From assembly GCF_001294535.1 (NCBI RefSeq), contig NZ_LGIC01000086.1, forward strand, positions 124,001 through 188,000: a stretch of DNA of 64,000 nt. Reading direction: 5' to 3'. Under the pieces are notes generated by a model. The model ran no database searches and was not told the origin of the DNA. It saw nothing but the letters and a program-made list of their open reading frames with translations. The translations under genes and the position numbers were made by a program. Shown piece after piece: positions 18,933 through 23,986 of this stretch; the stretch's first letter is position 1; each line of letters starts with the position of its first letter. This DNA is from Cypionkella psychrotolerans (GTDB taxonomy: Bacteria; Pseudomonadota; Alphaproteobacteria; Rhodobacterales; Rhodobacteraceae).

Positions 18933-18958
18933 GGAACCAATCCAAAGCCGCCTGCGTT
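18933..18958 (+). promoter_or_regulatory. Candidate sigma-EcfG promoter for the 19131 gene
   Basis: GGAAC (18933-18937), 17 bases, CGTT (18955-18958): a full match to the sigma-EcfG consensus. It points to the coiled-coil gene at 19131, leaving a leader of about 165 bases. Confidence 0.65.
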
Positions 18959-19130: not shown

Positions 19131-19661
19131 ATGATGAACGCGAACACCCTGAAAGACACCGTCTCAAACGCAAAAAATGCCGCTGATGAGGCCGTCGACA
19201 ATGCGACCGATAAAGTATCGCAGATGAGCCGCAAGGCGCGCGACACTGCGACCGAGGCTTTGGATGACGCGAAAGACATTGGCCAAACCGCCGCGCGCAA
19301 GCTGAAAGCACAGGCCGCCGAGGCTGCCGCTGCTGCCGAAGATCGTCTCGATGACCTCAGCGATGCGGCGCAATCGGGCTTCCGTTCGGCCAAATCCAAG
19401 CTTGCGGATGGCAGTGATCGTCTGGCCAAAGCGCTGCACGACGCGGCGGATGGCACGCGGGCGGCTTCGGGCCGGGTGGTTGAGGCTGTGTCGGACGTGG
19501 CCGATCATCTGCGCGCAGACTCACTCAGCGATCTGGTCAGCAGCACCAAAGCTTACGCGCGCCGTCACCCCGGCATCGTCGCCGCGGGTGCCGCTGTGCT
19601 TGGCTTTGCGTTCGCGCATTTGATCCAATCGCAGGCCCGCAATCGCAACCGTCGCGGATGA
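19131..19661 (+). CDS. Ala-rich helical protein with C-terminal membrane anchor
   Basis: A 176-residue protein of long amphipathic helices rich in Ala, Asp and Lys (apolipoprotein/LEA-like composition), followed by [22 protein letters not shown], a glycine-containing membrane helix, and a basic tail. The layout resembles the ElaB/YqjD and DUF883 inner-membrane proteins that associate with ribosomes or envelope under stress; this is similarity of architecture, not a firm family call. A consensus sigma-EcfG promoter lies upstream. The DUF3618 gene follows 38 bases later. Confidence 0.75.
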
Positions 19662-19699: not shown

Positions 19700-20503
19700 A
19701 TGCGAATGGATAATCTTGAACCCGATCTGATCGAGCGCCAGCTCCAGAAAGATCGTGCGGCGCTGAAAGCCTCGCTGACAGCCCTTGGCGACCGTTTCAC
19801 TCTGCAAGGCGTTGGCGGTGATCTGCTGAGCCATGCGCAAACGCTTGGCAACGTCGCCCGCGCCAACCCGGTGCTGGTCTCGGTGGCAGGGGCCGGTCTG
19901 GCGTGGTATCTGCTGCGCCGCAGCGCTGCCACATCCGAGACGGACGGCCTCAGTGGCACCGCTTATGAGGCTCAGGCGCGCTGGGAAGACGAAGGCGGCC
20001 CGACCCAACCGCTCGAAGACGATGATTTCGACTGGATCGCAGAGGCCGAAGCCCTACGGGCGCAAGCCAATGCCAGCCTGCACAAGCTAGAGGCGCTGGC
20101 GCTGGACGGTCTTGAATACGCCAAACAGCGCGCGGCCGTGTTGGCCGATCTGGCCCGCGATGTGCGCAAAGCCATGCGCCGGGGCTTGGATCAGCTTTCC
20201 ACCGCCGCACAGGATCGTATTCTGGCGGCACGCGAAGCGGCCTATGAGGCGCAGCTTTCCTTGCGCGCTTCGACCGCCAAGGCGATCAACGATCACCCGG
20301 TCGCCATCACCGGTGCGGCTTTGGCGCTGGGGGCTGCGGTTTCGGCAGCTTTGCTGCGCCGCCCTGCGTATGACCGAAAATTGGCGCAAGAACGCGATCG
20401 TTTGCTGGCAGAAACCCGGCGTCTGCTCGCGCATGAACGCCGCCGCGCCAATGAGGCGATGGACATTCTGGCCGGAAGCCGCAGCCTGCGTAACTCCTCG
20501 TAG
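19700..20503 (+). CDS. DUF3618 domain protein
   Basis: A 267-residue protein whose N-terminus (LEPDLIERQLQKDRAALKA) fits the DUF3618 pattern of a short helical segment before a membrane anchor. ANPVLVSVAGAGLAWYLL and a second segment ITGAALALGAAVSAALL are likely membrane helices; between and after them are charged helices. Function unknown. GGAGA sits 5 bases before the ATG at 19700. It is probably cotranscribed with the preceding gene under stress control. Confidence 0.75.
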   Translation: MRMDNLEPDLIERQLQKDRAALKASLTALGDRFTLQGVGGDLLSHAQTLGNVARANPVLVSVAGAGLAWYLLRRSAATSETDGLSGTAYEAQARWEDEGGPTQPLEDDDFDWIAEAEALRAQANASLHKLEALALDGLEYAKQRAAVLADLARDVRKAMRRGLDQLSTAAQDRILAAREAAYEAQLSLRASTAKAINDHPVAITGAALALGAAVSAALLRRPAYDRKLAQERDRLLAETRRLLAHERRRANEAMDILAGSRSLRNSS

Positions 20504-20589: not shown

Positions 20590-22329
20590 CTAAGGCTCAA
20601 AGCCTTCGCGGATCGGGAAATCCACCGTCACATCCACCGCTTCGGGCGTGTTGGCGACACTGACCGCGCCGCCGATCTGCTGGGCAAAACCGCGCACCAA
20701 CTGGGTGCCAATCGCAGTAGGCGTCGGTTGATCCGAAGCCGCCGTGCCCAAACTCGCCGGACCTTTGATATGCAGCCGCGCCTTTTGCTGCCCCTCCAAC
20801 AGCCGCAGCGACACCTCAACCTGCCCCATCTGTGCTTCACTCGCAGGCATCCCCGCCAGCAATTCAGTCAACAACAGTGCAAGCGGCACAGCCTGATCCG
20901 GGATCAGTTGAATCGGCTCAAAATCCGTGGCGATCGGCGTTCTTTTGCTGGTCGGCTTGCCCATGCCGCTGATCTGCCGGATCACCCCGGAAAACAGCGC
21001 GTCCATCTTAACGTCTTTCTGCCCCGCGGTCTCATAGAGCCCCATATGCACCGTCGCCAAGGCCATCACCCGATCATGCAGCCCCTCTAGGATATTGCGC
21101 ACTGCGATTGTTTTTTCCTGCCGGATGTGAATCCGCATGATCGACGCAATCAGCTGCAAGCTGTTGCCGGTGCGGTGATGCACCTCGCGCAAAAGGATTT
21201 CTTTTTGTCGCACGATGTTCTCGAGCTCGGCTTCTTCGTGCAGGATGGTCTCTGTCAAAACCGCATAGGACCGCCCGAGTTCGATGATCTCCGCCGGGCT
21301 GCCCTTCAGATCCAGCACCACCCGCTTGCGATCCCCACCGGCAAATGCGGTCATTGCACTGCCCAAATGCCGCATGTGGCGCGCCACCAATGTCTCAGCC
21401 CCCAGCAGCGCCACGCACATCGCGGCCAGCCACATCAACAGCGGAAACAGATAGGGGCTGATGTTATAGCCCAGCACGATCACGCTTTCGGCGCGGCTCC
21501 ATGACCCCAGCACGAATAACCCGTCAGCCATCGGCACCACCGAGAAAATCCGCTGCTCACCGCCCACAGTCCGAGCTAGGAATGTCTGCGCCCCGCCTGC
21601 GGCCAGATCCTGCAGCGATTTGTCAATCGGAACGCTGAACGGTGCATTCCCCAGACCGACGGAGGAGGTCAGCACCGTGCCGTCGCCATCAAAGGTCAGC
21701 AAAGCCAAAGGGTCGCGCGGGCTGGCATCGGCCACAACGATGCCAACATCCTCAAGCGCCTTATGCGGCATCGACGCCGAAATAAACCCGATCCGCGCGC
21801 CAGTGGCATCATAGACCGGATGCGACACCCCCAACACCGAAACCCCCGAAACCGGCCCCTTCGGGTTGACCGAAAAGCCGGGGTGATCCAGCGTGGCCAC
21901 CCTTGGAAACCGCGGATTGGTGGAAAAATCAAAGTCCTTCCCGGTCGAGGCGCAGGTCATTTTGCCCGACAGCGGCACATAGGCCACCAAAGACAGCGCA
22001 GGCTCTTGTGCCGCCACCGCCGCCATCAAACGCCGACAGGCAGCAGTATCGGCCAAAACCGGCCCCACGCTCTGCGCCAAAGTCGCCACCATCACCTGCG
22101 CCGATTGGATCAGCCGAATCTCCGGTGCCGCCGCGCGGGTGGTTTCATCCATGATCGCCAGATTGGCCCGTTGATCGGATTCGCTGTTGGCGGCCTGCGT
22201 TTGCACCAGACCCAAAAACCCCAGTGGCAGCATCGCCACCGCCGCCATCAACGCCAAGCGCGCGCCAAGCCGTTGGTAAAACGGCGGGCGCGCGTCAGAA
22301 AACTGCGGTGGTGGGGCCGCTTCTGTCAT
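20590..22329 (-). CDS. Membrane sensor, HisKA_2 type with degenerate ATPase domain
   Basis: A 579-residue sensor: a membrane helix at about 24-44, a periplasmic Cache-like domain (about 45-285), a second helix near 290-312, HAMP-like region, then a HisKA_2 domain with REVHHRTGNSLQ (His about 385). The ATP-binding region is altered: the N-box Asn is absent (LLLTELLAGMPAS at about 486-496), and no recognisable D-box Asp-x-Gly follows; only a G-box-like PTAIGTQLVRGFAQQIGG remains. It is the third gene of nepR-ecfG-sensor with a 4-base overlap. By analogy with PhyP of sphingomonads it may be a PhyR phosphatase rather than a kinase; this is inference. Confidence 0.83.
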   Translation of the reverse strand: MTEAAPPPQFSDARPPFYQRLGARLALMAAVAMLPLGFLGLVQTQAANSESDQRANLAIMDETTRAAAPEIRLIQSAQVMVATLAQSVGPVLADTAACRRLMAAVAAQEPALSLVAYVPLSGKMTCASTGKDFDFSTNPRFPRVATLDHPGFSVNPKGPVSGVSVLGVSHPVYDATGARIGFISASMPHKALEDVGIVVADASPRDPLALLTFDGDGTVLTSSVGLGNAPFSVPIDKSLQDLAAGGAQTFLARTVGGEQRIFSVVPMADGLFVLGSWSRAESVIVLGYNISPYLFPLLMWLAAMCVALLGAETLVARHMRHLGSAMTAFAGGDRKRVVLDLKGSPAEIIELGRSYAVLTETILHEEAELENIVRQKEILLREVHHRTGNSLQLIASIMRIHIRQEKTIAVRNILEGLHDRVMALATVHMGLYETAGQKDVKMDALFSGVIRQISGMGKPTSKRTPIATDFEPIQLIPDQAVPLALLLTELLAGMPASEAQMGQVEVSLRLLEGQQKARLHIKGPASLGTAASDQPTPTAIGTQLVRGFAQQIGGAVSVANTPEAVDVTVDFPIREGFEP

Positions 22330-22901
22330 CCCATCGCGGCCGCAGCCCGCCCGATCACCGCATCGGTGACGGCATCGACGCCCGAGAACATGCCCTCGCC
22401 CTCTGCCAGACCCAGCAGATGCGCCAACCGCTTGCGCGCCCGCGACGCCCGGCTTTTCACCGTGCCCGCCGCCACACCCATCATCGCGGCGGCTTCTTCG
22501 GTGGTAAACCCCGAGGCCCCGACAAGAATCAACACCTCGCGGTGTTCATCCGACAAGGTATCAAAAGCGCGCAGAAAATCGGTGAAGGCCATACGCCCGT
22601 CGTGATCGGGCTTTACACTCAGGGTGGCGGCATGGGCACCATCCGGGTCGGCAACTTCGCGACGGGATTTGCGCAAGGACGAATAATAGGTGTTGCGCAG
22701 AATGGTGAACAACCAGGCCTGCAAATTGCTGCCGCGCTGGAATTTGTCGATACCGGCCCAAGCCTTCAGAATGGTTTCCTGCACCAAATCATCCGCCGCC
22801 GTGACATTGCGCGTCAGGCTGATCGCAAAAGCGCGCAGCGGGCGCAGATGCTCGACCAACTGGTCGCGCGGATCAATATCCGAAGCCGCAGCGAGGTTCA
22901 T
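22326..22901 (-). CDS. ecfG: General stress sigma factor EcfG
   Basis: A 191-residue ECF sigma factor that directs RNA polymerase to GGAAC-N16/17-cGTT promoters. Region 2 carries AFAISLTRNVTAADDLVQET and GSNLQAWLFTILRN; region 4 carries LSDEHREVLILVGASGFTTEEAAAMMGVAAGTVKSR. A C-terminal extension of about 20 residues follows. Its position between nepR and a HisKA_2 sensor, opposite phyR, identifies it as EcfG rather than another ECF class. It overlaps both neighbours by 4 bases. Confidence 0.95.
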   Translation of the reverse strand: MNLAAASDIDPRDQLVEHLRPLRAFAISLTRNVTAADDLVQETILKAWAGIDKFQRGSNLQAWLFTILRNTYYSSLRKSRREVADPDGAHAATLSVKPDHDGRMAFTDFLRAFDTLSDEHREVLILVGASGFTTEEAAAMMGVAAGTVKSRASRARKRLAHLLGLAEGEGMFSGVDAVTDAVIGRAAAAMG

Positions 22902-23086
22902 TTCTGCACCCCGTTCTGCTGCGCCTCTTTATCTTTCAACTGCTGCAACAACAGCTTAAAGCGGTCCGGCACCTCCTCGACCAGCGCCGATTGGTACACC
23001 CGCTTGAGGTTTTCTTCGATTTGAGCCTTGATCTGATCAATCTGACCATCCTGCTCCGGTTTCGATCCCTGATTATGCATTTTCAC
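22898..23086 (-). CDS. nepR: Anti-sigma factor NepR
   Basis: A 62-residue protein that binds EcfG in unstressed cells and is pulled away by phosphorylated PhyR. The core IKAQIEENLKRVYQSALVEEVPDRFKLLL (about residues 19-48) matches the NepR helices and the invariant VPDRF turn. It is the first gene of the minus-strand operon, coupled to ecfG by a 4-base overlap. Confidence 0.93.
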   Translation of the reverse strand: MKMHNQGSKPEQDGQIDQIKAQIEENLKRVYQSALVEEVPDRFKLLLQQLKDKEAQQNGVQK

Positions 23087-23104: not shown

Positions 23105-23138
23105 GGGAACCAAACGCGCGCCCATGCGTTTGGTTCCC
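23105..23138. promoter_or_regulatory. Palindromic bidirectional sigma-EcfG promoter
   Basis: A perfect inverted repeat (13-bp arms 23105-23117 and 23126-23138, 8-base centre). Plus strand: GGAAC at 23106-23110, 16 bases, CGTT at 23127-23130, leading to phyR. Minus strand: GGAAC at 23137-23133, 16 bases, CGTT at 23116-23113, leading to nepR-ecfG. Both are full consensus matches and share the same bases. Confidence 0.85.
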
Positions 23139-23164: not shown

Positions 23165-23986
23165 ATGAGCAATGACGCTACCGCAAATCTTTCCGATCTG
23201 GTCGCCCTGCATTTGCCCAGCTTGCGCCGCTATGCGCGCGCTTTAACAGGCAATCAAACCAGCGGCGATCAGTATGCGCTGGCCGCTTTGGAAACGGTTT
23301 TGGCGGATCCTGCGTTGATTGCGGATGCAAGCGATGCGAAAGTGGCGCTGTTCAACGTGTTCCACATGGTTTGGGCCAGTTCTGGCGCCCCTGTAGCGCA
23401 AGCCGACAGCCGCCTGTCTGCCGCGGCCCAAGCACATATGGCCGAATTGACCCCGAACAGCCGCGAGGCGTTGTTGCTGCATTTCATTGAAGGCTTCAGC
23501 TTGGACCAAATCAGCGCGATCATGCAGATCGACACCGAAGAAGCCCAAGGCCTGATCACGCGCGCCCTACATGAGATGACCGGCACCGTCAGCGGTCGGG
23601 TCATGGTGATCGAGGATGAAGCCATCATCGCGATGGACATCATCGCCATCGTTGAGGCCATGGGTCACCAGATCACCGGCGTCGCCCGCACGCGCAAAGA
23701 AGCGGTGGCGCTGGCCAAGGCGGATATGCCCGATCTGATTTTGGCCGATATTCATCTGGCCGATGCCTCCTCTGGCATCGACGCGGTGAACGAAATCCTT
23801 GGTGGCTTTGAGCAGATCCCAGTGATCTTCATCACCGCTTTCCCCGAACGCCTGCTGACCGGGCACCGTCCCGAGCCTGCCTTCCTGATCAACAAGCCCT
23901 ACACCGAAGAACAGGTGCGCTCGTCGGTCAGTCAGGCGATGTTCTTCGCCTCGACCGAAACCCTGATGACCAAAGAAAACGCCTGA
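23165..23986 (+). CDS. phyR: Stress response regulator PhyR (anti-anti-sigma)
   Basis: A 273-residue hybrid: residues 1-140 form a sigma-like domain that mimics EcfG, and about 143-260 a receiver. The phosphoacceptor is Asp195 in LILADIHLAD; acidic residues are in MVIEDEAII, and TAFPERLLTGHRPEPAFLINKPY is the distinctive PhyR receiver signature with the conserved Lys. When phosphorylated it binds NepR and frees EcfG. GAGGGAG precedes the ATG. It is transcribed from the palindromic promoter divergent to nepR. Confidence 0.96.
   Translation: MSNDATANLSDLVALHLPSLRRYARALTGNQTSGDQYALAALETVLADPALIADASDAKVALFNVFHMVWASSGAPVAQADSRLSAAAQAHMAELTPNSREALLLHFIEGFSLDQISAIMQIDTEEAQGLITRALHEMTGTVSGRVMVIEDEAIIAMDIIAIVEAMGHQITGVARTRKEAVALAKADMPDLILADIHLADASSGIDAVNEILGGFEQIPVIFITAFPERLLTGHRPEPAFLINKPYTEEQVRSSVSQAMFFASTETLMTKENA

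Follow-up and report, generated by a model that had tools for sequence, protein, structure and literature searches.

A perfect palindrome between phyR and nepR-ecfG in Cypionkella psychrotolerans as a probable bidirectional promoter for sigma-EcfG

We found that a perfect palindrome between phyR and the divergent nepR-ecfG genes of Cypionkella psychrotolerans contains two interlocked, oppositely oriented EcfG-type promoter sites, and that this geometry is conserved in most loci of the family. The palindrome lies in a window of 64,000 nucleotides, meaning the whole stretch of DNA that was analyzed, and all positions given below refer to this window. We consider it probable, at roughly 0.78, that RNA polymerase with sigma-EcfG uses the palindrome as a single bidirectional promoter, in mutually exclusive orientations that lead to phyR one way and to nepR-ecfG the other. 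From the sequence, we infer that both directions are probably active in C. psychrotolerans, that the two orientations would exclude each other and that the share of each could be constant.

The palindrome and its flanking genes

The palindrome at 23105-23138 reads GGGAACCAAACGC-GCGCCCAT-GCGTTTGGTTCCC, i.e., it has fully complementary arms of 13 bp and a loop of 8 nt (GCGCCCAT). On the + strand, GGAAC (23106-23110) is followed after N16 by CGTT (23127-23130), and the - strand has the same arrangement, with GGAAC at 23137-23133, N16 and CGTT at 23116-23113. A preliminary description of this DNA had claimed a perfect inverted repeat with GGAAC-N16-CGTT on both strands, which is exact in sequence and coordinates. 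It had also identified GGAAC-N16/17-cGTT as the EcfG consensus, in agreement with the GGAAC-N16/17-C/GGTT given in the available text of three publications (PMC7083833, PMC4814048, PMC12148442). The EcfG (ECF15) consensus is thus present without mismatch on both strands of an element that adjoins phyR and nepR-ecfG. The features of the region are listed here, with conservation counts that refer to the 83 interlocked relatives described below.

23105-23138, no strand: perfect palindrome with both putative promoters (sequence, inverted-repeat scan)
23106-23110, + strand: -35 GGAAC of the putative phyR-facing EcfG promoter (GGAAC in 82 of 83 interlocked relatives)
23127-23130, + strand: -10 CGTT of the putative phyR-facing promoter, N16 spacer (CGTT in 67 of 83)
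23133-23137, - strand: -35 GGAAC of the putative nepR-ecfG-facing EcfG promoter (GGAAC in 83 of 83)
23113-23116, - strand: -10 CGTT of the putative nepR-ecfG-facing promoter, N16 spacer (CGTT in 56 of 83)
23136-23138, + strand: predicted phyR start, ~7 nt from the -10 and at the opposite -35, giving a 5′ leader of ~28 nt
23105-23107, - strand: predicted nepR-ecfG start, ~7 nt from the -10 and at the opposite -35, giving a 5′ leader of ~26 nt
23165-23986, + strand: phyR, anti-anti-sigma response regulator, 273 aa (NF006623 at 337 bits, PF22029, PF22233, PF00072)
22898-23080, - strand: nepR, anti-sigma factor, 60 aa from ATG (PF18557 at 50.6 bits)
22326-22901, - strand: ecfG, ECF sigma factor, 191 aa (NF009198 at 292.5 bits), overlapping the nepR stop by 4 bp
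20590-22329, - strand: sensor histidine kinase of the HWE/HisKA_2 type, PhyK-like (PF07568, PF07536)

From left to right, the order is phyR -35, nepR -10, free spacer, phyR -10, nepR -35. The preliminary description held that each -35 overlaps the opposite -10 region. The two sites are indeed interlocked, but no base is common to any two boxes, a gap of 2 bp separating each -35 from the opposite -10, which is the inner of the two boxes. If transcription is assumed to start ~7 nt beyond the -10, each promoter is predicted to start at the -35 of the other. The predicted starts are ~31 bp apart, the centre offset of the two sites is -7 bp, and 84 bp separate the start codons of nepR and phyR.

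The flanking genes encode a PhyR-NepR-EcfG partner switch, in that NF006623, PF18557 and NF009198 all match above their cut-offs at one locus. PhyR has sigma-like and receiver domains according to its profile matches, and its matches among solved structures include 4qic, with a PDB molecule name that includes PhyR. The profile search found no NCBIfam match for nepR, and a search of the PDB with the NepR sequence gave no hit up to E 0.1. The NF009198 model is named only “RNA polymerase sigma factor”, as is the best solved match of EcfG (5uxx), and we use the name ecfG because the gene adjoins nepR and phyR. The kinase scores 145 bits against the PhyK model NF051872, which is under the cut-off of 750.

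Within the genus of the window (g1), one locus (L039) encodes a PhyR that is 97% identical. A strong phyR match occurs in 5 of the 15 genomes of this genus. Since 5 of the 10 genomes that have no such match are at least 90% complete, some losses of phyR in the genus are likely.

The window also contains a third EcfG-type site, GGAAC-N17-CGTT at 18933-18958 on the + strand. It is located ~170 bp upstream of a small ORF (19131-19661) whose apolipoprotein-like matches are all sub-cut-off; the next ORF (19700-20503) has no Pfam match.

Neither the palindrome as such nor the number of motif matches can serve as evidence. Inverted repeats of 11 nt or more within 40 bp number 22 in the window, and because three of these are perfect and longer than the one at 23105-23138, rarity of the palindrome is ruled out as an argument. 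(An inverted repeat at 1868-1903 is perfect, with 16-bp arms and a 4-nt loop.) The single motif GGAAC-N16/17-CGTT matches 3 times in the window versus 0.9 expected, a count that 10 of 100 shuffles reach, and 73 times in the genome versus 243 for a reversed control pattern. Motif counts are therefore ruled out as well, being weak in the window and not enriched in the genome.

The double element behaves differently from these single features. GGAAC-N2-AACG-N10/11-CGTT-N2-GTTCC is present in 32 of the 198 genomes of the family, once in each, whereas its reversed control has 0 matches in the same 198. We compared 28 of the 32 double elements with an independently fetched set of regions upstream of phyR, and all 28 match. 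By coordinates, the other four (in G191, G161, G114 and G022) are just upstream of a phyR match, which is partial in G114 and G022. The double element in its interlocked geometry is far beyond chance, and the case for the element rests on conservation, not on the palindrome or on motif counts.

Conservation and distribution of the interlocked geometry

The preliminary description had proposed to look for conserved symmetry across Rhodobacteraceae, and in such a comparison 83 of 93 loci from the family are interlocked. We collected 96 phyR loci, 92 of them from a sample of the family and another 4 from the genus. Of these, 93 showed a divergent nepR; the three in which none was detected (L027, L077, L127) were left out. 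Several PhyR-like matches were also not included in the locus set, namely two pieces in G142, one in G031, a second copy in G004 and a partial match (G114:C269). A site was accepted if it has at least 8 of the 9 box bases, i.e., one mismatch per site.

With exact boxes, both sites are present in 46 of 93 loci, and in all 46 there is a pair at a centre offset of -6 to -7.5. At the 8/9 threshold, the 83 interlocked loci have offsets of -7.0 (54 loci), -6.5 (17), -6.0 (8) and -7.5 (4). The rest of the 93 have the nepR-facing site only (6 loci), the phyR-facing site only (2) or neither (2), and none has both sites solely in another geometry. Mononucleotide shuffling of the regions produced no interlocked pair in 18,600 shuffled regions, 55 of which had both sites in any geometry. 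The promoter regions of G114 and G022 entered via pattern loci (L132, L138) and were thus selected for the element; omitting them, the interlocked geometry occurs in 81 of 91 loci. Two further family loci outside the 93 are L159, which is interlocked, and L203, which has the nepR-facing site only.

The geometry is kept while the distance from the nepR domain to the phyR match varies from 89 to 288 bp. L112 is set aside in this range, as its distance of 59 reflects a wrong nepR call across the element, and for this locus we took a fixed 230 bp upstream of phyR instead. Among 33 equally spaced elements, mean pairwise identity is 97.3% in the boxes, 35.7% in the inner spacer and 34.0% in the flanks, so the two promoters are the strongly conserved part of the region. 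The 83 loci are related by descent and hence are not independent events. Nonetheless, given that spacer and flanks have drifted, there has been ample time to lose the boxes.

Relatives that keep only one arm as a promoter were what the preliminary description had regarded as speaking against its reading. A few exist: 8 of the 93 loci have a single site at the threshold used, 6 of them nepR-facing and 2 phyR-facing. In three of these eight (L075, L084, L109), there is a 7-of-9 partner in the interlocked place, and in the other five the site that is kept is always the nepR-facing one. In L091, L113, L117, L118, L120 and L203, the nepR-facing site has at least 8 of 9 box bases, and a phyR-facing site of that quality was not found.

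The boxes differ in how strictly they are kept. In the 83 interlocked loci, the -35 is GGAAC almost without exception on both sides, and the -10 is CGTT in 67 on the phyR side and in 56 on the nepR side. In 29 of the 83, CGTT is found at one -10 box but not at the other, and the two boxes are not significantly coupled (Fisher p = 0.37), which rules out balanced -10 strengths as a rule of the family.

To see where else the element occurs, we scanned contigs with a slightly wider strict pattern, which gave at least 116 loci. In 100 of these, the element is located between divergent phyR and nepR, and 96 of the 100 are labelled Rhodobacterales. In four others, which are near the end of their stretch, just one of phyR and nepR is visible, and 12 are elsewhere. 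Five of the 12 (L240, L247, L260, L271, L273) are inside long ORFs, in other bacteria, and seem to be chance matches. The other seven consist of one match between ORFs in a Clostridiales bin, four in Methylobacterium and two between divergent ORFs in Rhizobiaceae bins.

The Methylobacterium matches are interlocked EcfG-type double promoter sites in four species (L214:3248-3280, L231:1654-1686, L268:241-273, L307:2967-2999), and neither phyR nor nepR was detected near these four. In L214, L231 and L307, the element is between divergent small ORFs whose N-termini resemble signal peptides by eye. In the Rhizobiaceae bins, a similar element (L297:4699-4730, L298:6792-6823) is beside a divergent ORF of ~260-290 aa. 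The ORF on the other side of the element in L298 has a weak ParB_N match, under the Pfam cut-off.

Across the class, PhyR was found at E 1e-40 or better in 42 of 250 genomes. Including follow-up searches, this led to 51 loci, 34 with a detected divergent nepR (2 of them from the family of the window) and 17 without one; L194, at 102 bases, was too short and was left out. The 32 loci of other families comprise 9 in which the sites are back-to-back, 6 that are interlocked, 7 that have both sites at other offsets, 5 with one site and 5 with none. The back-to-back pairs have a centre offset of +31.5 to +34 and are distributed over six families (L160, L161, L165, L172, L173, L178, L180, L329, L330). 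These back-to-back EcfG promoter sites of phyR and nepR represent a second geometry with a near-constant centre offset.

Outside the family of the window, the interlocked loci belong to f34 (5 of 6 loci, at -6.0) and, more doubtfully, to f129 (1 of 3 loci, L171, the other two not being interlocked). When the -10 is GGTT, with a score of 8, a site can overlap itself at an offset of -2, as in L184 and L187 and in second pairs of L172 and L180, and such cases were not counted as interlocked. A PhyR tree was made from 37 proteins, i.e., the class loci with divergent nepR and enough phyR sequence plus 11 hand-listed interlocked loci of the family, and family loci that lack the interlock are absent from it. 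On this tree, f34 is apart from the family of the window, and the interlocked label changes three times, each change being forced by supported branches. The three changes may correspond to several gains or to gains and losses.

A possible contested site and alternative readings

Under the proposed mechanism, stress would free EcfG from NepR, and the EcfG holoenzyme would bind the element in one or the other orientation, never in both. One orientation would yield phyR transcripts and the other nepR-ecfG transcripts, which probably extend into the downstream kinase gene. Because both orientations share the element, the sigma factor, the anti-sigma factor and the anti-anti-sigma factor would all be induced from one site. 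Bound RNA polymerase covers roughly -50 to +20, a footprint that would prevent two polymerases from binding at once. The preliminary description had placed two opposite EcfG promoters in one footprint, and the genes, the consensus and the 83 of 93 loci argue for this part; its statement that only one direction can fire at a time would follow from the size of the footprint.

The directional share of EcfG-driven initiations would then be set by the relative strengths of the two promoters, mainly by their -10 boxes, and not by the amount of active EcfG, since site and holoenzyme are common to the two competing orientations. Total output would saturate at one polymerase. In an equilibrium model with a 4-fold difference in strength and a 10,000-fold range of holoenzyme, the share stays at 4.0 if binding is exclusive and falls from 3.9 to 1.0 if the promoters are independent. 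A stochastic kinetic check gave shares of 3.5 to 4.1 for exclusive versus 3.7 to 1.1 for independent promoters, and competition costs the weaker direction as much as 78% of what it would otherwise make. According to the model, the overlap could thus hold the EcfG-driven share constant into saturation, although independent promoters, too, have an almost steady share as long as they are far from saturation. For bidirectional promoters in E. coli, the available text of a published study states that polymerase binding is mutually exclusive, that the forward:reverse ratio was kept when polymerase concentration was changed and that competition appeared only when activity was raised (PMC12825309). 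The kept ratio agrees with the prediction of the exclusive-promoter model.

The preliminary description went beyond this and claimed that the element fixes the ratio of PhyR to NepR/EcfG. We find no support for a fixed ratio, in view of the uncoupled -10 boxes, the one-site loci and the mRNAs of Rhodobacter sphaeroides. Given that CGTT is one-sided in 29 of the 83 loci, with no significant coupling, any ratio probably differs between species. One of our loci, L014, we take to be R. sphaeroides 2.4.1; its element is exact on both strands. It encodes a 68-aa NepR and has a Crp/Fnr-type gene downstream of phyR, both as described in the available text on this organism (PMC5830050). According to the same text, ecfG mRNA measured by qRT-PCR increases only under membrane stress, in a PhyR-dependent manner, while phyR mRNA shows no increase under this stress but is raised 2-3 fold by singlet oxygen, superoxide and diamide (PMC5830050). 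Since the two mRNAs answer different stresses, the total phyR:ecfG mRNA ratio is not fixed in R. sphaeroides. The flat phyR mRNA under membrane stress implies that phyR has other inputs there, or that the phyR-facing half is weak.

A narrower idea is that the interlock was selected to make the EcfG-driven share of PhyR to NepR-EcfG independent of sigma, with a constant feedback gain across induction. We regard this as possible, though doubtful. In its favor, the modelled share is constant only if binding is exclusive, the geometry is locked while spacer and flanks drift, and the interlock also occurs in f34, which is separate on the PhyR tree. Against it are the one-sided -10 boxes, the 8 of 93 loci with a single site, the uncoupled R. 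sphaeroides mRNAs (PMC5830050, available text) and the fact that separated promoters suffice in other families. In an extended form, which we put forward a little more tentatively still, the interlock itself would be selected as a steric clamp on the ratio, the near-invariant -35 would be accompanied by a -10 acting as a species-specific dial, and the arrangement would have a separate origin in at least one other alphaproteobacterial family. The same reading contrasts the clamp with the back-to-back design, which is nearly fixed at ~+33 bp, elsewhere in the class.

The R. sphaeroides evidence also bears on another explanation, in which the nepR-ecfG-facing half alone works in many species and phyR, with a weak half facing it, is transcribed mainly from other promoters. 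The available text reports a start upstream of nepR by dRNA-seq, and its dRNA-seq section makes no mention of a phyR start from the element (PMC5830050). Together with the unresponsiveness of phyR mRNA to membrane stress, and with the nepR-facing site being the one kept in 6 of 8 one-site loci and in 5 of 5 that lack a 7-of-9 partner, this is consistent with a single working half. However, a dead promoter would drift like the spacer, and the phyR-facing half has kept its -35 in 82 of 83 loci and has CGTT at the -10 more often than the nepR-facing half (67 versus 56). We consider this explanation unlikely as an account of many species.

Plain compaction, in which the sites overlap merely due to a short intergenic region, is improbable. 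The 84 bp between the start codons in the window would fit such an origin, but four loci (L029, L107, L123, L124) are interlocked with 245-288 bp between the nepR domain and the phyR match. The nine back-to-back loci have gaps of 208-299 bp in eight cases and 563 in one, so the gap ranges of the two geometries overlap.

The perfect dyad symmetry could instead suggest the site of a dimeric DNA-binding regulator, with a secondary likeness to promoters. Beyond the boxes, each arm has two partly kept C, one that follows GGAAC (47 and 48 of 54 elements) and one inside the -10 (35 and 44 of 54), and one free arm position matches across the arms in 26 of 54 elements versus 20.3 expected (permutation p 0.04, uncorrected for descent). 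Yet the strictly kept bases are the promoter boxes, the -10 deviations are often one-sided, and the arm spacing is not fixed but differs by 1-2 bp between elements, following the allowed promoter spacers of 16/17. This makes an operator very unlikely. Selection for symmetry as such is ruled out, since arm matches beyond the boxes are near expectation and the single excess is weak. An RNA hairpin, as a terminator or leader structure, can practically be dismissed: despite perfect 13-bp arms and an 8-nt loop, the repeat is between divergent genes, neither transcript would span all of it given the predicted starts at its edges, and it has a loop that is not conserved and no T run behind it.

Relation to known promoters

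Divergent EcfG control of phyR and nepR-ecfG is already known, as are bidirectional promoters. In Alphaproteobacteria generally, both units are under EcfG-dependent promoters (PMC8103513, PMC4814048). These share the genes and the consensus with our case, and would share the EcfG dependence and the positive autoregulation, whereas the available text of both papers describes promoters for two units, not one interlocked element. The R. sphaeroides phyR locus has the gene order found here, and L014 carries the strict element; the available text gives a nepR start and stress-specific mRNA changes, and describes no palindrome or overlapping promoters (PMC5830050). In Rubellimicrobium thermophilum, the element is present (L270) and promoters with the same consensus were predicted at the general stress response loci, with overlap or a shared footprint not mentioned in the available text (PMC12148442). 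We found no description of an interlocked phyR/nepR promoter in the open-licence literature, which does not prove its absence, and the interlocked form is apparently undescribed.

Close relatives in mechanism are the sigma-70 bidirectional promoters of E. coli, in which one short pseudo-symmetric element offers two opposite, exclusive orientations to the polymerase, and from which divergent mRNAs are made that are often linked in function (PMC12825309), as would be the case here. In the E. coli type, as presented in the available text, the -10 is shared and the starts are mostly separated by 18 bp, distances of 10 and 23 being frequent too (PMC12825309). By contrast, the -10 boxes are separate here, each being inside the spacer of the other site and beside its -35, and the predicted starts are ~31 bp apart. 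Judged by Warman-type definitions, the core elements are opposed and overlap in one footprint (offset -7 bp, interlocked), but the -10 boxes are neither shared nor overlapping (23113-23116 versus 23127-23130) and the starts are not predicted within ~10-23 bp of each other. A further difference is that the sigma factor is EcfG, itself one of the products. Overall, the element is probably a bidirectional ECF promoter.

To our knowledge, most work on bidirectional promoters concerns the housekeeping sigma factor. In 83 of 93 sampled loci of this family, the polymerase's own sigma factor, the inhibitor of that factor and the antagonist of the inhibitor would come from a single contested site. The element would thus offer a natural system in which to study whether overlapping promoters determine the stoichiometry or the noise of a feedback switch.
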